From positions 1 through 27,369 of the IMG/VR virus record IMGVR_UViG_3300033273_000210: DNA of 27,369 bases. One strand, written 5' to 3'. Position numbers and translations under genes: made by a program. The notes below the pieces were generated by a model, which made no database searches, was not told where the DNA came from, and saw only the letters and a list, made by a program, of their open reading frames with translations. Shown in pieces: positions 14,072 to 25,743 of this stretch (position 1 is its first letter; every line of letters starts with the position of its first letter). The stretch comes from a virus.

Positions 14072-14506
14072 ATGTCAGATAATATGGTAAAAGATATTCA
14101 CGATATGCATGCTAAGTATGGTGTGCATGAGTGGGTAAGAACAAAGATTGAATCTGGTGACACAGAATCACTTAAATCATTTCTTAGTTTTCGTATGGAT
14201 TTCATTAATGAAGAATATACTGAAACACTAAAAGCAATTTTTCATGATGAAGATCCTGAAGAGATTGTTGACGGTCTCATTGATATTATCGTTGTTGCCT
14301 TAGGTACACTCGATGCCTTTGGTGTGAATCCTCAAAAAGCTTGGGATGAAGTACATAATGCAAACATGGCAAAAGAAGTTGGCGTCAAAGCTGAACGACC
14401 AAATCCACTCGGACTACCAGATCTTGTCAAACCAAATGGATGGACAGCACCAAGTCATGACGGAAACCACGGGTATTTCCCTCACTTTGTTCAAAAGCAT
14501 ATTTGA
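14072..14506 (+). CDS. MazG-like all-alpha NTP pyrophosphohydrolase
   Basis: A 144-residue protein with the metal-binding pattern EExxE (47-51) followed by ExxD (64-67) in FINEEYTETL and PEEIVDGLIDIIVVALGTLDAF, the signature of the MazG/HisE/dimeric dUTPase superfamily. The enzyme would hydrolyse a nucleoside triphosphate to the monophosphate. Substrate is unknown: dCTP or dUTP hydrolysis would feed the dCMP genes downstream, and alarmone turnover has been proposed for phage MazG. The C-terminal 45 residues are a Pro/Gly-rich tail. CGGAGAA gives the ribosome site. It overlaps the next gene by 50 bases. Confidence 0.75.
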   Translation: MSDNMVKDIHDMHAKYGVHEWVRTKIESGDTESLKSFLSFRMDFINEEYTETLKAIFHDEDPEEIVDGLIDIIVVALGTLDAFGVNPQKAWDEVHNANMAKEVGVKAERPNPLGLPDLVKPNGWTAPSHDGNHGYFPHFVQKHI

Positions 14507-16437: not shown

Positions 16438-16805
16438 TGCGTGAATCAATTAAAGTCCTGCAAGAATGTGCAGAGATTCAAGACAAAAAGTCTCGAGACT
16501 ATCAGAATGAAAAGTCTCGTATTTGCCAAGCAGATTACTATCCGCGTGGCATTTTGTCAATTATGGAACTGATCAATACTAAGACAATCCGTCTGTGGTC
16601 AGTACTCGAAGCTATGGAGAATGATCCAGACTATGCACCAAACTTTGAATCAATCGAAGATTCGCTTAAAGATCTAATCAACTATTCTTCGTTTGCTGTT
16701 GCGTATTCTCGTGGTAAGATCGATGGCCAAAGCCCAGATCGTGATTTCCTCAATCGTAAAAAGCCATCAACTGTGAAAGAGATCCGTGATGCTGAAGGTC
16801 AATGA
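16437..16805 (+). CDS. DUF1599-like protein (nucleotide modification-associated domain 1)
   Basis: A 122-residue helical protein. KKSRDYQNEKSRI near 17-29, the long helix around TIRLWSVLEAMEN and ESIEDSLKDLINYSSFAVAY at about 71-90 follow the DUF1599 pattern (K-kDY..., kt-RL..., e-i-DsLkDliNY). The family is often found next to thymidylate synthase-type genes in phages that alter their bases, and it lies directly before a gp42-type dCMP hydroxymethylase here. Its biochemical role is not established; binding of a modified nucleotide is a guess. Confidence 0.65.
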   Translation: MRESIKVLQECAEIQDKKSRDYQNEKSRICQADYYPRGILSIMELINTKTIRLWSVLEAMENDPDYAPNFESIEDSLKDLINYSSFAVAYSRGKIDGQSPDRDFLNRKKPSTVKEIRDAEGQ

Positions 16806-17475
16806 TATCCGTGCCGACTTTATTGATAAGTTGGCTGCAGAAGAATTTACTATTGATAAGACTGGTCAAAAGACTATTGAGATCATCGGTGCATCGTTTC
16901 ATGCAGATGAACCTGCTATCTTTGGCGAAGTGAATCAAGAGTATGTATGTGCAGAGATTGAGTGGTATCTAAGCGGATCTACGAATATTCATGACATTTA
17001 TTGTGGCACACGTGAACCTCCACAAGCATGGAAACATTGTTCAGATGAGTGGGGTAATATTAATTCTAACTATGGCTATCTCATCTTTGATCCATTATAT
17101 CATGGACAATATGAAATGGCGTTACAAGAATTGATAAATAATCCTGATGGCCGAAGAGCTTCAATGATCTATACTCGACCATCCATCTGGATCGAATACT
17201 CAGAAAATGGTAAAAATGATTTTATCTGCACAAACTCAGTCACCTATTATATCCGAGACAACTATCTCCATGCCGTAGTACAAATGCGTTCTAATGACGT
17301 AGTCTTTGGTTATAAGAACGATTATGCATGGCAACGATTTGTATTAAATAGACTGGCAGACGATATTAATGTTTCTGCAGAAAACATGTTTGAAGAAGAT
17401 ATTCGTCCAGGTAATATTGTATGGCAAGTTCAGAACTTGCATGTATATGAACGACATTTCCACTTGGTGAAATAA
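16789..17475 (+). CDS. 42: gp42-type deoxycytidylate 5-hydroxymethyltransferase
   Basis: Thymidylate-synthase-fold enzyme that converts dCMP and methylene-tetrahydrofolate to 5-hydroxymethyl-dCMP. DKTGQKTIEIIGASFHADEP (23-42), INSNYGY, MIYTRPSIW, DFICTNSV with catalytic Cys147 and MRSNDVVFGYKNDYAWQ (166-182) track T4 gp42 closely. Asp178 occupies the position where dTMP synthases have the dUMP-selecting Asn (T4 gp42 Asp179), so dCMP should be the substrate. Length is 228 residues (T4 246; about 20 fewer at the C-terminus). ThyX at 25081 makes dTMP separately. ATG 16789 overlaps the previous gene; GTG 16786 is an alternative. Confidence 0.9.
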   Translation: MLKVNDIRADFIDKLAAEEFTIDKTGQKTIEIIGASFHADEPAIFGEVNQEYVCAEIEWYLSGSTNIHDIYCGTREPPQAWKHCSDEWGNINSNYGYLIFDPLYHGQYEMALQELINNPDGRRASMIYTRPSIWIEYSENGKNDFICTNSVTYYIRDNYLHAVVQMRSNDVVFGYKNDYAWQRFVLNRLADDINVSAENMFEEDIRPGNIVWQVQNLHVYERHFHLVK

Positions 17476-17909
17476 TGAAAGTTTGTATTGGTCCATATAA
17501 AGAAGAAGGTCCTCGTAAAGAGGAAATTCACATCCATGATTACGATACTTGGAGTATGGACCATACACTTGCACTTATCGCTTTACCGATGCTGAAGCAA
17601 CTCAAAGAAACAAAGCATGGTGTTCCATCATGTATTGAATATGAGGATATGCCATTACATCTTCAATTCATTGAAAAGCAATATAGTCAAACTTACGAAT
17701 TATTTCCAGAAGATGATATGTGGGAACCAGAATTTGAAAGACAAGCAAAGGTTTGGGATTGGATCATGGACGAAATGATCTGGGCAATGGACCAGCTTGC
17801 TAATGAAGATAAAGTAGATCCAGAAACCTGGTATTCAAGAGAATTTAATGATCGCATGAGTAATGCGCTAAAATTATTTGGAAAGTATTATAGATCGTTA
17901 TGGGATTAA
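17475..17909 (+). CDS. Conserved-type phage protein, unknown function
   Basis: A 144-residue acidic, Trp-rich protein. HIHDYDTWSMDHTLALIALPMLKQLKETKHG is split over residues 19-48 and WDWIMDEMIWAMDQL lies near 94-108; the end is LFGKYYRSLWD. From memory the 'DyDtWSmDhTLA-i-lPML-qLK-tkhG' pattern is very common in phages of many hosts, often near nucleotide genes, without an assigned role. The His/Asp cluster in the first 31 residues could bind metal. TAATG coupling to gp42 and overlap with dCMP deaminase suggest a part in nucleotide metabolism. Confidence 0.75.
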   Translation: MKVCIGPYKEEGPRKEEIHIHDYDTWSMDHTLALIALPMLKQLKETKHGVPSCIEYEDMPLHLQFIEKQYSQTYELFPEDDMWEPEFERQAKVWDWIMDEMIWAMDQLANEDKVDPETWYSREFNDRMSNALKLFGKYYRSLWD

Positions 17910-18340
17910 AGTGGGATCAGAGATATTTAAAACTTGCTGAAGAAGTAGCGAGTTGGTCGAAAGACCCGTCACGGAAAATAGGTGCCGTGGCTGTAGGAGC
18001 CAAAGGTCAGGTTCTGGCCCAAGGCTTTAACGGATTTCCTCGAGGGATTGACGATAGTATAGAACGCTACAATGATCGTGAGAGGAAATATGAGCTGGTA
18101 GTTCACGCTGAGATGAATGTCATTTATAATGCAACATATAGTGGTGTATCTTTAGACGGTGCAGACTTATATGTGACGGGACTACCGGTATGTTCTGAAT
18201 GTGCCAAAGGAATTGTACAAGTCGGTATCAAACGTGTTATAATGAGAGATATGGAAATACCTGAATCTTGGTTAGCCTCATGGCATAAAACACAGGAGAT
18301 ATTCAATGAAGCCAAAATATTATTCGAGTTCATTAAGTAA
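17900..18340 (+). CDS. cd: Deoxycytidylate (dCMP) deaminase
   Basis: Zinc enzyme converting dCMP to dUMP, the substrate for dTMP synthesis. HAE at 69-71 and PVCSEC at 96-101 form the zinc and catalytic site. SKDPSRKIGAVAV and NGFPRGIDD are typical of the dCMP deaminase branch. Length is 146 residues; T4 Cd is longer (193). It shares dCMP with the hydroxymethylase two genes upstream, so both branches of the dCMP pool are encoded together. Confidence 0.93.
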   Translation: MGLKWDQRYLKLAEEVASWSKDPSRKIGAVAVGAKGQVLAQGFNGFPRGIDDSIERYNDRERKYELVVHAEMNVIYNATYSGVSLDGADLYVTGLPVCSECAKGIVQVGIKRVIMRDMEIPESWLASWHKTQEIFNEAKILFEFIK

Positions 18341-18479: not shown

Positions 18480-18505
18480 AGGCCGGGCGAAAGCCCGGCT
18501 TTTCT
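18480..18505 (+). terminator. Strong rho-independent terminator with GAAA loop
   Basis: GCCGGGC (18482-18488) pairs with GCCCGGC (18493-18499) around a GNRA-type GAAA loop, followed by TTTTCT. It is the most GC-rich stem of the window and a clean boundary between the nucleotide genes and the 18519 cassette. Confidence 0.88.
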
Positions 18506-18518
18506 ACTTGAGATCTAT

Positions 18519-19484
18519 ATGATGAATGTAATTACAAATCCTATTTCAAATATTCCCGTCAATCCAAAATCACACGTCCATGGTTGGTCACAGGTATGGA
18601 GAGACCAACTCAATGCATCTATTAATCACAAGTGTACACCAGATACCCTCAGAAGTAATATTCTGTATATCGATCATGGTGCAAACTTTGGTGGTACACT
18701 AAATCTATTCGGTGGTGCTACAAAAGAAGTATACGATAGAATTAATCTAGTATGTTCACACTCTTATGTTGTATCATTAGATTGGGACATGCCAGACTAT
18801 GGGGCAATGCTCAAGAAAAGGATCGGAGCAAAAACAACTTATGAAGGGATAACTGAACAATGGTGTGATCAGGTATCTCAGAGATGTAAACACATCTCAT
18901 CTTTAAAACAACAGGATTTAAATTATGACAACATCATTGTGGGAGATTCTCATACTATCGCTTTTAGTGATAGCACTGATCGGGTGTATCGTAACGATGG
19001 TAAGACTTTGTATGGTGCAATCAAGTCGGGGCTTGGACAACTCCTCAGAGAGACTACTCCGAGCGGTCGAGTCACTTTATGCTTTGGTTCTATTGACATT
19101 AGGCATCATGTATTACGACACGATAACTTTGACATTAAAGACTTTGTTAGGCAATATGTAGAACAGGGAAATGATTTGGCAGAGGATGTATGGTATTGTG
19201 CACCGGTTCCAGTCGAATATGAAGATCGTAAGATTCCTAAATCAGGGTTCTACAAAGGTACACCGTTCTATGGATCAGCAACTGATCGTCGTGATATCAC
19301 AATGCACTTTCTAGACGAGTTATACATACAATCGAACGATAAAGTTGTTCAACCACCAGATGACTGGTATACAATGGATGGCAAATCATATGCCAATACT
19401 TACATGGAATTTGGATCAAGCTTTCATATAGCACCTCCATTTTACCGTAGAAACGATTGGGGAGTATCACCACTTGGCGCATAA
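18519..19484 (+). CDS. SGNH/GDSL-hydrolase-like protein
   Basis: A 321-residue protein. GDSH at 142-145, preceded by a hydrophobic strand (YDNIIV), is block I of SGNH hydrolases with the candidate nucleophile Ser144. CFGSIDIRHHVLR (188-200) resembles the 'FGeIDcR-H' block of one SGNH branch often found beside carbohydrate genes. The N-terminal 130 residues (LYIDHGANFGGTLNLFGGA) are a separate domain I do not recognise. It may act on an ester or acyl group, substrate unknown. First gene of a four-gene overlapping cassette. The ribosome site is weak (GAGA); ATG 18522 is an alternative. Confidence 0.55.
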   Translation: MMNVITNPISNIPVNPKSHVHGWSQVWRDQLNASINHKCTPDTLRSNILYIDHGANFGGTLNLFGGATKEVYDRINLVCSHSYVVSLDWDMPDYGAMLKKRIGAKTTYEGITEQWCDQVSQRCKHISSLKQQDLNYDNIIVGDSHTIAFSDSTDRVYRNDGKTLYGAIKSGLGQLLRETTPSGRVTLCFGSIDIRHHVLRHDNFDIKDFVRQYVEQGNDLAEDVWYCAPVPVEYEDRKIPKSGFYKGTPFYGSATDRRDITMHFLDELYIQSNDKVVQPPDDWYTMDGKSYANTYMEFGSSFHIAPPFYRRNDWGVSPLGA

Positions 19485-20361
19485 TAATCATGTAGTTGAT
19501 GGAATTAATAAAGATGTTGGACCATTATATACAGTTGACGATGCAAGATCTTACTATTTTGATCTTGCTAAAGATTGGACTGATCCTTACGGTGAACCTG
19601 TTGTTACCACTCATGATGGCGTTAGGGTTGTCCGGGATGATTACTTGGTTGGTTCTAAGGTACGCGGGGGTGACTGTCTCATTTCCTCGCTCCCTGATCA
19701 TATTGATACCATTGTTTATGTTCAACCTCGTACTGGTCTTGCTGGTGTTTCTATTCTAGATGTAGCAAAACGTTACAATAAAAAAGTAATGTTGTTTATG
19801 CCGTCATCTAAAAAGATCTCACATCATCAGGCCTGTTGTATTGAACGTGGGTGTGACTATTCATTCCATCGTATTGCAGCAATGCCTAATCTTAATTTGA
19901 TTGCAAAGAAATGGGCAGATGAAAGACCGAATGCTTTCTTTGTTCCATTAGGATTAAAGCATGAACGTGTAACGGCTGGCTTTGTTAAGACTGCATCTCA
20001 GATACCAGAACCTGATGAGGTGTACACCGCCACGTCCACGGGCGTGCTCACACGGGCACTTCAGATTGCTTGGCCAAATGCTAAGTTTACTTCTGTTTGT
20101 GTATCACGAAATATGAAAGCAGGTGAACTGGGTGTTGCAACTCCGATATCAGAACCACTTGCATTTACAGCATCAGAAAAAACTGAGAACCTTCCACCGT
20201 TTCCGAACATCGATACCTACGATGGTAAGGTGTGGAAGTATATACCTAAGAATAGCGATAAGGATATTTTATTCTGGAACGTTGGGAAGGAACCTGAATT
20301 AATAGACGAATCGATTTACGATCGAATAGATTCATACAGAGATTGGAAAAAGAAATGTTAG
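19474..20361 (+). CDS. PLP-dependent enzyme-like protein (fold type II)
   Basis: A 295-residue protein. VVRDDYLVGSKVRGGD at 52-67 resembles the 'vkRDDl-gGnK-RkLe' loop of the ACC deaminase/D-cysteine desulfhydrase branch, which makes Lys62 the candidate PLP lysine. YVQPRTGLAGVSILDVAKRY and KVMLFMPSSKKIS fit the next two strands, and TATSTGVLTRALQIAWP is a Ser/Thr/Gly loop where the PLP phosphate would sit. It could remove or exchange a side group on an amino acid; substrate unknown. TTG start with GGGGAG at 19459-19464 and an 11-base overlap with the SGNH-like gene. No other in-frame start fits. Confidence 0.5.
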   Translation: MAHNNHVVDGINKDVGPLYTVDDARSYYFDLAKDWTDPYGEPVVTTHDGVRVVRDDYLVGSKVRGGDCLISSLPDHIDTIVYVQPRTGLAGVSILDVAKRYNKKVMLFMPSSKKISHHQACCIERGCDYSFHRIAAMPNLNLIAKKWADERPNAFFVPLGLKHERVTAGFVKTASQIPEPDEVYTATSTGVLTRALQIAWPNAKFTSVCVSRNMKAGELGVATPISEPLAFTASEKTENLPPFPNIDTYDGKVWKYIPKNSDKDILFWNVGKEPELIDESIYDRIDSYRDWKKKC

Positions 20362-20957
20362 AAACTTGCTCAGACTTAATGCGCCGTGCGTATGAAACAA
20401 ACTTCATAACAGTCCGTGATGGTAATATCAGTATTGCTCATCATGACCGTGATCATTTTTGGATTACACCAAGTGGTATTCGTAAACCAGATCTACAGCC
20501 GAATATGTGGAAAAAGATTGATAGTAAATCTGGCAAGTCATTACCATACACTGATATCAGTGCTAATCTAACTCCAAGTGGCGAATTACCATTGCATTGG
20601 GGACTACAAAGAGTTTTACCCGAAGATATTGAAACTCGTGTTGTTGTTCACTTACATCCAACGTATATTGTTGCTGCAATGCACCGTGGACTTAAATTAG
20701 AAGAATTAGTAGATCACTTTCCTGAGTTAGGTAGATACACTCGAGTTGCAAAGAGTACTCCAGATGTTCCACCAACGTCAAATGAACTTGGTGCTGCATG
20801 CCATGATAACCTAGGTTTAGGTACTGACGGTAGTTTGAAATTTGATATTGTAGGAATCAAAGGTCATGGTTGTGTTGCTATTGATGAGACACCATGGAGA
20901 GCATACGAACACATTGAACGATTGGAACATATTTCTAAGATTGTATTGGTATCATGA
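20355..20957 (+). CDS. Class II aldolase family protein
   Basis: A 200-residue zinc aldolase or epimerase of the fuculose-phosphate aldolase/AraD family. DGNISI at 22-27 and ITPSG at 37-41 bind the phosphate; SGELPLHWG holds the catalytic Glu77; HLH (99-101) and His171 in KGHGCVAID are the zinc ligands. All key residues are present, so activity is likely. The reaction is retro-aldol cleavage of a sugar phosphate or a related aldol. It is rare in phages and not part of the T4 core. ATG 20355 overlaps the PLP gene stop; TTG 20343 is an alternative. Confidence 0.85.
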   Translation: MLETCSDLMRRAYETNFITVRDGNISIAHHDRDHFWITPSGIRKPDLQPNMWKKIDSKSGKSLPYTDISANLTPSGELPLHWGLQRVLPEDIETRVVVHLHPTYIVAAMHRGLKLEELVDHFPELGRYTRVAKSTPDVPPTSNELGAACHDNLGLGTDGSLKFDIVGIKGHGCVAIDETPWRAYEHIERLEHISKIVLVS

Positions 20958-21976
20958 AGTGGATTAACGAAGAAGCAATTGACATCCTGACAAACTATTA
21001 TTACCCCAGAGCAAAATGGCTGCAGCTAAATTGTAACTGGGGTAAAATTCCTTACGTCGGAGAAGAATCTAATTTAGAAATAAATGACGATTTGATGCAA
21101 AAGATTGATATATATGATTGCTATACACGAAATGCAGCAGGATTCTCAAACGTATTGCAAGACCTCAAGTTCATGACAGATACTCCGAAGAAGCATCACC
21201 ACGATGCCAATCGTCGGCGTATTGTAGAAAGTTATGATACAAAATCGTGGGACCTTAAAACATGGTTCTATGTCTATATGTGTCACCGAGTCACTGGCTC
21301 AGGTGCATCGTTTACCCGAGATCACGGATATCGTAATAATGCAGTGCAGCATTGGGGTAATCTCCGTGATATTAGTGATATGAAAGAACATATGGTTCGA
21401 ACAAAAGAATCAGGTAAACCGCTCTTCACATCTATCGGTAACCAACCACCATCACCTCGTAAGGGTGTTACATGTTTAGACTTTATGACAAATGAACTTG
21501 AACCACTTCTTGATAGACTGATTGATTGGTTGAATCAAGGTGTCAAAAAGACTCACAAACAGGTTGTAGATTATTTAAACAATTACAATATTGAACAAGG
21601 TCACAAGCGTTTTAATTTTGTCTATGCTGCATTCTCGTATGATCTGGGAGACTATCATAAGGATTTAGTTGATGATATGTCTCACGGATATTTTGGTAAT
21701 AATGCAGTGCGATGTATGAAAGTATTATCGAGTGGTTACTCAACCGATGAGTTCATGGATATCCTGTGTGAACGTATGGGTGGAGCACCAAGAGATAATG
21801 AGGATGTGATGTGTGACTTTGTAAGATTTGGTCAGAATTATGTACCACGATCAGATGATACATTTGACCATGTTCCGAGTGACATTACAAACAATTCTGG
21901 TTGGGTATCAGGCTGGGAACAAAGACAAGGCCGACCTACAAATAGTAGTGTACCTTTAGATGAATTCATGGTATAA
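20954..21976 (+). CDS. 340-residue unknown, last gene of the 18.5-22 kb cassette
   Basis: ATGA overlap with the aldolase gene. Mostly helical, with conserved-looking stretches: KKHHHDANRRR at 79-89, WFYVYMCHRVTGSGASFTRD at 104-123 followed by HGYRNNAVQHWG, and YAAFSYDLGDYHKDLVDD later. The TGSG...HGYRNN pattern invites comparison with the amino-acid:DNA transferase and alpha-glutamyl/putrescinyl thymine pyrophosphorylase groups that build hypermodified bases; I recall this only loosely and give it as a lead. The His and Arg cluster suggests nucleic acid or phosphate binding. Its stop lies within the -10 box of the uvsX promoter. Confidence 0.6.
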   Translation: MKWINEEAIDILTNYYYPRAKWLQLNCNWGKIPYVGEESNLEINDDLMQKIDIYDCYTRNAAGFSNVLQDLKFMTDTPKKHHHDANRRRIVESYDTKSWDLKTWFYVYMCHRVTGSGASFTRDHGYRNNAVQHWGNLRDISDMKEHMVRTKESGKPLFTSIGNQPPSPRKGVTCLDFMTNELEPLLDRLIDWLNQGVKKTHKQVVDYLNNYNIEQGHKRFNFVYAAFSYDLGDYHKDLVDDMSHGYFGNNAVRCMKVLSSGYSTDEFMDILCERMGGAPRDNEDVMCDFVRFGQNYVPRSDDTFDHVPSDITNNSGWVSGWEQRQGRPTNSSVPLDEFMV

Positions 21977-22000: not shown

Positions 22001-22165
22001 ATGCCAAAAAGAAATGTTCCGCTCACTTCAAATACCGCATACTGCGTTTTTAAAGAAAACGGAAAACAATATACCGTGTACTCAAAACAAGTACTTAACC
22101 GACGAATCGAAGAAGGTATCATTACCGATACAGATCGAGTCGTAATTAAGAGGATCGGCAACTAA
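22001..22165 (+). CDS. 54-residue basic micro-protein before uvsX
   Basis: First gene after the promoter, with AGGAGAA at 21990-21996 as ribosome site, coupled to uvsX by TAATG. MPKRNVPLTSNTAYCVFKEN continues into YTVYSKQVLNRRIEEGIITD and ends VVIKRIGN: short strands, a helix, a strand. It is basic and may bind nucleic acid. No family is recognised. Co-translation with uvsX suggests a recombination-related role, by position only. Confidence 0.6.
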   Translation: MPKRNVPLTSNTAYCVFKENGKQYTVYSKQVLNRRIEEGIITDTDRVVIKRIGN

Positions 22166-23485: not shown

Positions 23486-24848
23486 ACAAACAATTTTAAG
23501 AAATCTCCTTACGGATGAAAAGTTTATGCGTAAGGTTTTGCCTTTTATCAAGCCTGATTACTTTGAAGGTGTTTATCGTATTCTTTTCAAAGAAGCTGGT
23601 AAGTTTGTTGCTAAGTATAATAAACTACCAACATCAGAATCTTTTCAGATTGAAATTGATCAGTCAGATCGCCTAACAGATGAACAATATCGTATGGCAT
23701 CAGAGATTCTTCCACATCTTTTTAACAATGAAAAGGTTGATGAAGAATGGCTATCTAATACCACAGAAAAATGGTGTCAAGATCGGGCAATTCATAATGC
23801 CATCATGGAATCTATTTCTATTATTGATGGTAAACATGAGACACTTACAAAAGGTGCATTACCTGATTTATTAAGCAAAGCACTTGGTGTTGCCTTTGAT
23901 ACTAATGTAGGTCATGATTATGTCGAAAACGCAGAACAACGATACGAGTTTTATCACACTGAGGAAGAACGCTTACCTTTCGACCTTGACTACTTCAACC
24001 GAATTACAAAAGGAGGTTTACCGGCTAAAACGCTTAACATTGCTCTTGCAGGTACTGGTGTGGGTAAATCTTTGTTCATGTGCCATATGGCTGCTGCTTC
24101 TCTAACTCAAGGGTCAAATGTTTTATACATAACTATGGAAATGGCAGAAGAACGTATTGCAGAACGTATCGATGCTAACTTATTGAATGTGCCTATCGAC
24201 CAGCTTGATAAACTATCAAAAGATATGTTTACAACAAAGGTTGCTGATATCTCTCGTAAGACAACTGGTAGTTTGATCATTAAAGAGTATCCTACTGGTT
24301 CTGCACACTCTGGTCATTTCCGTGGTTTATTGAATGAGTTGAAATTAAAACGAGAGTTTGTTCCGGATATTATCTTTATTGATTATTTGAATATTTGTTC
24401 TAGTTCAAGAATGAAAGGTATGGGTGGTGCAATTAACTCCTATAATTATATTAAAGCAATTGCAGAAGAGATTCGGGGACTCGCTGTGGAATTCGATGTA
24501 CCTATTGTATCTGCAACCCAGACGACCAGGTCCGGTTATTCCAACTCTGATGTTGGCCTTGAGGACACATCAGAATCATTTGGTCTCCCTGCAACTGCCG
24601 ACCTCATGTTTGCGCTTATATCTACAGAAGAACTTGAGAACTGCGGTCAACTCATGGTCAAGCAACTCAAAAACAGATATAACGACCCAACTGTCCACAA
24701 ACGATTTATTATCGGCGTTGATCGAGCTAAGATGAGATTGTATGACGTTGAGGAACAGGATTTAATGAATGACGATCCTATCCCTGATAAACCGTTAAAT
24801 AGTTTTGGTAATAACGAGAGACCTGATACAAATGGTTGGAAAATATGA
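23469..24848 (+). CDS. 41: gp41-type replicative helicase (DnaB family)
   Basis: Hexameric 5'-3' helicase of the replication fork. The N-terminal primase-interacting region spans about 1-150, then LPFDLDYFNRITKGGLPAKT, Walker A AGTGVGKS (194-201), YITMEMAEERIAERID, Walker B IIFIDYLNI near 301-309 and SATQTTRSGYSN, the DnaB motif order. Length is 459 residues (T4 475). All ATPase residues are present. In T4 the partner is primase gp61; no gp61-like gene is in this window, while a primase-like protein of another family is at 14457. Confidence 0.95.
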   Translation: MQANLEQTILRNLLTDEKFMRKVLPFIKPDYFEGVYRILFKEAGKFVAKYNKLPTSESFQIEIDQSDRLTDEQYRMASEILPHLFNNEKVDEEWLSNTTEKWCQDRAIHNAIMESISIIDGKHETLTKGALPDLLSKALGVAFDTNVGHDYVENAEQRYEFYHTEEERLPFDLDYFNRITKGGLPAKTLNIALAGTGVGKSLFMCHMAAASLTQGSNVLYITMEMAEERIAERIDANLLNVPIDQLDKLSKDMFTTKVADISRKTTGSLIIKEYPTGSAHSGHFRGLLNELKLKREFVPDIIFIDYLNICSSSRMKGMGGAINSYNYIKAIAEEIRGLAVEFDVPIVSATQTTRSGYSNSDVGLEDTSESFGLPATADLMFALISTEELENCGQLMVKQLKNRYNDPTVHKRFIIGVDRAKMRLYDVEEQDLMNDDPIPDKPLNSFGNNERPDTNGWKI

Positions 24849-25084
24849 AAGATGAACTAATGACTATTACTATGGAAGAATGTGGTGAAGTGATTCAAGC
24901 GTGTTCTAAAATGCAAAGATTTCCTGGTGATCAATCTGCAGAAATGTTAAAGAAAGAACTTGGCGATCTGTATTGTATGATTGAAATCTGTATTGAGAAA
25001 AGATTATTGACATATACTGAGCTTATGGATGGAGCACGAGCCAAACGACATAAACTAAAAGAGTGGAGTAATCTTGAATTATGA
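24845..25084 (+). CDS. Short MazG-like NTP pyrophosphohydrolase
   Basis: A 79-residue protein starting in an ATGA overlap with gp41. EECGE (11-15) and ELGD (38-41) give the EExxE...ExxD metal site of the MazG superfamily in a minimal single-domain form. It is coupled to thyX downstream (ATGA), so removal of a specific dNTP or clean-up of dUTP beside dTMP synthesis is likely. It is the second such enzyme of the window; the 14072 protein has a long extra tail, so the two probably differ in substrate. Confidence 0.82.
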   Translation: MKDELMTITMEECGEVIQACSKMQRFPGDQSAEMLKKELGDLYCMIEICIEKRLLTYTELMDGARAKRHKLKEWSNLEL

Positions 25085-25743
25085 ATGTCAAACTAATTAG
25101 TTACAGCAAAGGTCATGGCTCTATGGGTGGAATCAAAGAGCTCAAAGATCTTATTGCCTATAGCGCACGTGTATCTAATCCATCTAATCAAATGAATACG
25201 GAAACAAATGACAAACTTCTTAACTACCTTATCAAACACAAGCATTGGTCTCCCTTTGAAATGGCGTCGGCGTGTCTTGAGATTGAAACGACTCGCGACA
25301 TCGCTCGTCAAATACTAAGACATCGGTCATTTTCATTTCAAGAATTCAGTCAGCGATATGCAAATCCAGATGCTGAATTTGATCAGATGTTTGAAAGACG
25401 TGAACGTCGTGAGCAGGATCCTGTCAACCGTCAAAATTCTATTCCGGTAGAAGATGAAAGTTACGACTGGGAAAGACTGCAGAAACGTGTTGAGTGGATG
25501 TGTGAACGGGAATATCGCAATGCAATTAAAATGGGTATTGCAAAAGAACAAGCCCGAGCATTGCTTCCTGAAGGTTTGACTAAGTCACAGATGTATATGA
25601 ATGGAACGATTCGTTCTTGGATTCATTATATTGATTTGAGATCTGGCCACGGAACTCAGAAAGAACATATGGAAGTTGCAAGAGCTTGTGCAAAAGCTTT
25701 AGAACCAGTATTTCCTATGATTATGGAGTTTGTTAATGAGTAG
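25081..25743 (+). CDS. thyX: ThyX, FAD-dependent thymidylate synthase
   Basis: Converts dUMP to dTMP with methylene-tetrahydrofolate, FAD and NADPH. The ThyX signature RHRSFSFQEFSQR spans residues 80-92, HKHWSPFEMASACLEIET precedes it and SQMYMNGTIRSWIHYIDLR contains the dUMP-binding Arg. Length is 220 residues, usual for the family. T4 itself uses a ThyA-type Td; here the ThyA-fold enzyme at 16789 is of the dCMP hydroxymethylase type, so ThyX fills the dTMP role, fed by dCMP deaminase at 17900. Confidence 0.96.
   Translation: MNVKLISYSKGHGSMGGIKELKDLIAYSARVSNPSNQMNTETNDKLLNYLIKHKHWSPFEMASACLEIETTRDIARQILRHRSFSFQEFSQRYANPDAEFDQMFERRERREQDPVNRQNSIPVEDESYDWERLQKRVEWMCEREYRNAIKMGIAKEQARALLPEGLTKSQMYMNGTIRSWIHYIDLRSGHGTQKEHMEVARACAKALEPVFPMIMEFVNE

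Follow-up and report, generated by a model that had tools for sequence, protein, structure and literature searches.

A conserved SGNH, PLP-enzyme and AADT-like gene cassette of T4-like phages as a probable pathway for amino-acid-type cytosine hypermodification

The stretch analysed is a virus contig of 27 kb (27,369 nucleotides; IMG/VR record IMGVR_UViG_3300033273_000210), referred to in its full length as the window. Its DNA polymerase is nearest to that of phage C48C1 (Kyanoviridae, 54%), followed by those of T4-like cyanophages. At positions 18519-21976 lies a cassette of four open reading frames (ORFs), all on the + strand and each overlapping or abutting its neighbour in the ORF list of the window, downstream of a gene for a hydroxymethylase with the fold of thymidylate synthase (TS). 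The cassette is probably a cytosine hypermodification pathway of the kind that combines an amino acid:DNA transferase (AADT) with a pyridoxal phosphate (PLP) enzyme, through which 5-hydroxymethylcytosine (5hmC) in DNA would gain a side chain derived from an amino acid. The genes concerned are the following:

16786..17475, + strand: T4 gp42-type dCMP hydroxymethylase with TS fold (match to the T4 enzyme, D179)
18519..19484, + strand: ORF1, SGNH-fold protein (AlphaFold2 (AF2) model, structure match, phrog_13881)
19474..20361, + strand: ORF2, fold-II PLP enzyme of the M6 gp052 family (phrog_7093, hhalign, BLASTP)
20355..20957 (upstream TTG at 20343), + strand: ORF3, class II (Zn) aldolase-family protein (PF00596)
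20954..21976, + strand: ORF4 (U340), AADT-like all-helical protein, candidate amino acid:DNA transferase (AF2 model, BFVD match)

An earlier note, made from the letters of the window, had described ORF1 to ORF4 as four overlapping genes. They are real and co-oriented: the reading frames and their linkage are kept at 60-90% identity across dozens of independent contigs, a degree of conservation which, judged from the sequences, far exceeds chance. ORF2 starts at the TTG at 19474, its aligned relatives beginning at the equivalent MAHN-type residue, and for ORF3 the ATG at 20355 is a more likely start than the TTG at 20343 because relatives begin with MLETCSD.

ORF2 matches the Pfam family PALP weakly (E 0.0023) and phrog_7093 with an E of 1.7e-33, the latter being a profile that gp052 of phage M6 matches over its full length (2e-159). 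Compared directly, ORF2 and M6 gp052 are linked by BLASTP (7e-6) and by hhalign (probability 96, E 1.3e-9, residues 49-270), and they have the C-terminal signature PFP..YD.K.WK..FWN.G in common. The candidate PLP lysine, Lys62 (GSK-R), is invariant among ORF2 relatives. Profile, gp052 homology and conserved lysine are thus all those of an M6-type hypermodification PLP enzyme, and by its sequence ORF2 belongs with M6 gp052 in one family of fold-II PLP enzymes, in agreement with the fold-II and Lys62 assignments of the earlier note. Relatives are encoded by at least 500 stretches in IMG/VR, with distant matches only among 50,697 GenBank phages, and a PLP scan of the genome contigs returned none. 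Erythrobacter phage R6L and Microcystis phage Mae-JY30 (L002:6792-9214, L003:6378-8693) have PLP relatives that are fused to DNA-methylase and ParB-like genes or adjoin them; no ADDT gene was found in either phage, and the two loci may belong to another modification system.

In M6, the gene for gp052 directly follows that for gp051 (AADT/ADDT), and the cluster continues with gp053 (annotated as a photolyase), gp054 (the 5-hydroxymethyldeoxyuridine (5hmdU) DNA kinase 5-HMUDK, PF18748), gp055 (HMUDK_hel, PF18723) and gp058 (TS family). M6 DNA carries 5-(2-aminoethyl)deoxyuridine, which is made from 5hmdU in DNA via a phosphorylated intermediate (PMC6449724). The cassette resembles the M6 cluster in its homologous PLP enzyme, its AADT-like helical protein, its TS-fold hydroxymethylase and its compactness, but differs in having a dCMP instead of a dUMP hydroxymethylase, an SGNH protein in place of the HMUDK kinase and the gp053-type gene, and an AADT-like protein beyond the reach of sequence profiles. 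In the thymidine pathway of phage ViI, an amino acid is likewise transferred and then trimmed by a PLP enzyme.

That AADT-like protein is ORF4, for which no Pfam match was found in 29 members, the PF18724 cut-off included, and no convincing PHROG match either; the earlier note had described it as a 340-residue unknown. Its conserved motifs are TGSG..HGYRNN and EDVMCDF. The AF2 model built from the 29 sequences is all-helical (pLDDT 86, pTM 0.87), and a search of BFVD with this model returned A0A6J5L8T5, an "Amino acid:DNA transferase domain-containing protein" (E 2.5e-13, TM 0.77/0.68, 26% identity), a second AADT protein (1.8e-4) and several 5-hmdU DNA kinase helical-domain proteins (from 5.6e-3), with a probability of 1.00. 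The model thereby matches named AADT proteins along its entire length and groups with the AADT/aGPT-PPlase-type proteins to which the earlier note had pointed for a structural comparison. Fold and context together support the predicted protein as AADT-like and as a candidate amino acid:DNA transferase. Relatives of ORF4 are encoded in 36 stretches of IMG/VR, and none were found among the GenBank phages. They form two classes that share about 30% identity and hold one and the same place, next to PLP genes that hardly differ; the second class (in L074, L080, L083, L123 and L126) may mark a different transferred group.

The TS-fold protein matches T4 dCMP hydroxymethylase with an E of 5.6e-71, as against about 1e-4 for thymidylate synthases. 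Its Asp179 aligns with the corresponding Asp of T4 gp42 and is an Asp in 67 of 67 relatives, at a position held by Asn in true TS and in the enzymes of M6, Vi01 and phiW-14. Being nearer to gp42 than to TS, and having the Asp and not the Asn in its base-recognition site, the protein is of the T4 dCMP hydroxymethylase type and not the dUMP hydroxymethylase of M6/ViI-type pathways. The product of the RB69 kind of enzyme is 5-hydroxy-dCMP (PMC13390438); a synthase of this type was rejected as a candidate, the identity to the RB69 homologue being only 25% compared with the strong T4 match. Since a separate ThyX (25081-25743) can supply dTMP, the TS-fold gene is not needed for this purpose. The T4-type match with its Asp, the distance from the RB69 homologue and the presence of ThyX all indicate that the base at issue is 5-hydroxymethylcytosine and not 5-hydroxymethyluracil, and the synthesis of 5-hydroxymethyl-dCMP by the hydroxymethylase is strongly supported. 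The T4-type match, the Asp and the 25% identity to the RB69 enzyme also make it very unlikely that the TS-fold protein hydroxymethylates dUMP and that the cassette decorates 5hmdU in a thymidine hypermodification of the M6/ViI kind, even though thymidine pathways are where AADT-like and PLP genes have been known to date (PMC6449724). The HMUDK kinase and HMUDK_hel profiles, moreover, gave nothing over cut-off in the cassette contigs searched.

The AF2 model of ORF1 (pLDDT 87.7, pTM 0.87) consists of an N-terminal alpha/beta domain (residues 1 to about 128) and an SGNH domain (129-316), and it is over the latter that SGNH/GDSL esterases are matched, with a Z of about 10; phrog_13881 is matched with an E of 7e-90. 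In 34 relatives the invariant residues are G-D-S144-H (G142-D143-S144), G-x-I-D-x-R-H-H and S-x-H303. The fold, the GDS nucleophile motif and the C-terminal His of the SGNH/GDSL superfamily are hence all present, and the SGNH-like call of the earlier note held up in the structure comparison: as modelled, the fold of ORF1 is genuinely that of SGNH proteins, extended by a further domain at the N-terminus, an assignment that concerns the fold and makes no claim of hydrolase activity. Among named phages, relatives were found only in Aeromonas, Stenotrophomonas and Tenacibaculum phages.

ORF3 matches PF00596 with an E of 1.4e-22 (80.9 bits, cut-off 22.2) and is a class II aldolase family member, as had been called. 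Its gene is present in only 3 of the 31 loci that have enough flank on both sides, and sometimes stands elsewhere in the genome (L019/L030). The triad of SGNH, PLP and ORF4 genes is complete in all 31, as is its company with the gp42-type dCMP hydroxymethylase (31/31), figures which represent co-occurrence given one core gene, the loci having been chosen by a PLP or U340 match. The conserved core therefore comprises SGNH, PLP and ORF4, and of the four-gene cassette first proposed these three stand, while the aldolase is optional. The orders SGNH-PLP-U340, U340-PLP-SGNH, PLP-SGNH-U340 and several containing c37 were observed in 79 non-redundant loci, the core genes always being on one strand and mostly overlapping or at most 60 bases apart. 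The c37 proteins are a family of ~330 residues encoded in or beside the cassette of some phages (L089:4088-5080, L126:2963-4006, L111:5055-6008), with an EDKxC motif which, by eye, recalls AADT/HMUDK_hel proteins. Phage C48C1 has no TS-fold gene, and its primase-to-uvsX position holds only an epimerase and a UDP-glucose dehydrogenase gene. The joint absence of hydroxymethylase and cassette from this phage is a negative covariation in favour of a pathway acting on 5hmC.

Since the enzyme classes are generic and the aldolase and PLP folds are metabolic ones, a small-molecule or cofactor pathway unrelated to DNA could also be envisaged, in which a metabolite is the substrate of PLP lyase, aldolase and esterase. 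This is highly improbable in view of the DNA-glycosylase/AADT-type fold of ORF4, the constant hydroxymethylase linkage and the lack of a cassette in the hydroxymethylase-free C48C1.

Genes for UDP-glucose dehydrogenase and a nucleotide-sugar epimerase lie near uvsX both with and without the cassette (L004:5853-7597, L184:7327-9227), in 12 and 9 of the 31 flanked loci, respectively. They were rejected as members of the pathway because C48C1 has both and no cassette. Their proximity in many loci would nevertheless suit glycan chemistry, with the SGNH protein as an O-acyl esterase or transferase acting on sugars, and with a sugar on 5hmC or on the host surface as the target that the set decorates. 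Acetyl-xylan and sialate esterases are among the structure matches of ORF1, and the SGNH gene of Aeromonas phage 25 comes after genes for UDP-galactopyranose mutase and an unclassified protein that looks, by eye, like a glycosyltransferase. We consider this explanation unlikely, as the conserved core includes no glycosyltransferase, the dehydrogenase and epimerase occur in a cassette-less phage and in a part only of the flanked loci, and ORF2 and ORF4 match families of amino-acid-type hypermodification. In phage 25 itself, the mutase and the unclassified protein are encoded directly before the SGNH protein (L178:2776-6047), which suggests a possible furanose modification of cytosine there.

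The homology of ORF2 to M6 gp052, the structure of ORF4, which includes the first rank by Z of the PaMx11 glycinyltransferase treated below, the identity of the hydroxymethylase, the linkage of the triad, the covariation in C48C1 and an SGNH fusion in Aeromonas phages 44RR and AS4, described below, are the grounds on which an AADT/PLP pathway acting on cytosine is likely. In such a pathway the hydroxymethylase encoded at 16786 would make 5-hydroxymethyl-dCMP, which by analogy with T4 would be incorporated into phage DNA. The hydroxymethyl group would then be activated within the DNA, with the SGNH protein as the best candidate for this step. ORF4, as its fold and context suggest, would attach an amino acid, or a nucleophile like it, to the activated base, and the PLP enzyme, in keeping with its family, would leave an aminoalkyl-type group of it by trimming or decarboxylation. 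The class II aldolase might, speculatively, alter the side chain further in a minority of phages. What results would be a bulky cytosine, probably with a positive charge, that resists host nucleases, and the modification probably protects against bacterial DNA-cutting defences. The earlier proposal that the cassette elaborates 5hmC has thus come through the structure and co-occurrence checks favourably, and it is still something that we infer.

Regarding the activating step, the 5-hmdU DNA kinase (PF18748) and HMUDK_hel (PF18723) profiles had no match over cut-off in ten cassette contigs and the window, the contigs being partial; of the controls, M6 and Vi01 are matched and phiW-14 is matched by neither profile. 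A search of the cassette contigs with M6 gp054, which was run without a positive control, was empty. In about 16 loci (e.g. L004:8951-9364) a small APS-kinase-like P-loop protein is encoded between uvsX and gp41; it was rejected as the missing kinase since, of the 11 cassette records searched, that of the window among them, only 1 has it. ORF1 homologues occur in the T4-like Aeromonas phages 44RR (ORF233c, 795 aa) and 25 (ORF225c), and 44RR also has gp42, but unlike the cassette phages neither has relatives of ORF2 or ORF4. The SGNH homologues of 44RR and AS4 continue, as fusions, into a C-terminal part with a weak HMUDK_hel match; for this part of the 44RR protein by itself the E is 5.6e-4, which does not reach the curated cut-off. 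An SSF sodium:solute symporter gene lies directly before the fusion gene in both (L001:6408-10388 in 44RR; L180 in AS4), and the group with which the DNA is modified might enter the cell through this symporter. Given that no 5-hmdU-type DNA kinase was found, that this fusion exists and that the SGNH gene is constantly present, the SGNH protein is, with low confidence, the best candidate for the activating step in place of a kinase. A route of this kind, in which the SGNH protein acylates or otherwise activates 5hmC in DNA, ORF4 displaces the group with an amino acid and the PLP enzyme trims it, is possible but doubtful as a whole.

Several points weigh against the AADT/PLP reading. Among solved structures compared by VIA-align, the 5-phosphomethyl-dU (5-PmdU) glycinyltransferase gp46 of phage PaMx11 (8z2n_B) ranks first for the ORF4 model by Z (9.3; 202 residues, 3.8 A), but with 6% identity and a different substrate, 5-phosphomethyl-dU, and AGOG 8-oxoguanine DNA glycosylases practically tie with it (Z 9.0 and 8.8), so that the solved structures show the superfamily fold of ORF4 and not its activity. 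That 8z2n is a true ADDT-family member follows from the match of the ADDT profile to 8z2m/8z2n by sequence (1.6e-120). A plain Foldseek search of the ORF4 model against the PDB gave nothing significant, and profile-profile comparison of ORF4 with ADDT (PF18724) and HMUDK_hel (PF18723) gave no significant link with either shallow or deeper alignments. In the ADDT profile search, ORF4 members were enriched among sub-threshold matches only (18 of the top 40). With its sequence-profile links to ADDT below significance, ORF4 is not filed as a PF18724 member; a weak PF18724 match in G004 (E 0.0012) is a clamp loader and was dismissed as noise. One locus, L015, has the order SGNH-aldolase-U340 with the aldolase in the usual PLP position and no PLP gene in its 6 kb contig. 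The SGNH gene of phage 25 has sugar genes as its neighbours instead, and the role of the SGNH protein in the pathway is that of a candidate.

Three further features of the window bear on the setting of the cassette:

17900..18340, + strand: dCMP deaminase, a usual cassette neighbour (PF00383 E 1e-20, phrog_174, linkage)
18480..18501, + strand: intrinsic terminator upstream of the cassette (terminator scan)
25081..25743, + strand: ThyX, flavin-dependent thymidylate synthase (PF02511 E 4e-41)

The terminator, which had been noted at 18480, is borne out: it has a 9 bp stem with 7 GC pairs and a T-rich tract after it, and is the best of 3 found, where 1.8 were expected. The uvsX promoter proposed at 21949 fared less well, as no site is listed there and the scan gave 11 promoter-like sites against 14.4 expected; a 54-codon ORF (about 22001-22165) separates ORF4 from uvsX. 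The window also encodes PRA-PH-like (14072-14506) and MazG-like (24836-25084) pyrophosphohydrolases, either of which could be a dCTPase for cytosine replacement.

T4-like phages protect hydroxymethylcytosine with sugars. The modified cytosines of T4 and RB69 are glucosyl-hmdC and 5-arabinosyl-dC (PMC13390438). As in these two phages, the cassette phages are T4-like and would carry, judging from their genes, a cytosine modified at C5 via a TS-fold enzyme, but T4 and RB69 add sugars by glycosyltransferases, which the cassette core lacks. The combination of hydroxymethylase, AADT and PLP enzyme is known in kind for thymine; what is new here is cytosine as the base, the SGNH partner and the missing kinase. 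No description of an amino-acid-type modification of 5hmC was found in the papers searched. A study on pelagiphages presumes that the TS genes of marine T4-like myoviruses, the pyrophosphorylase gene being absent, serve thymidylate synthesis only (PMC9599517), and the cassette phages would be an exception to this. The protein set is small and can be tested on readily available 5hmC DNA. If the kinase-free route were true, it would be an amino-acid-type cytosine hypermodification with new activation chemistry, spread across T4-like phages. An amino-acid-type modification of cytosine would, if true, in itself add another class of DNA base, and seemingly a common one given the number of PLP relatives in IMG/VR, with a bearing on the evasion of restriction and Cas systems and on whether enzyme-based library preparation misses such phages.

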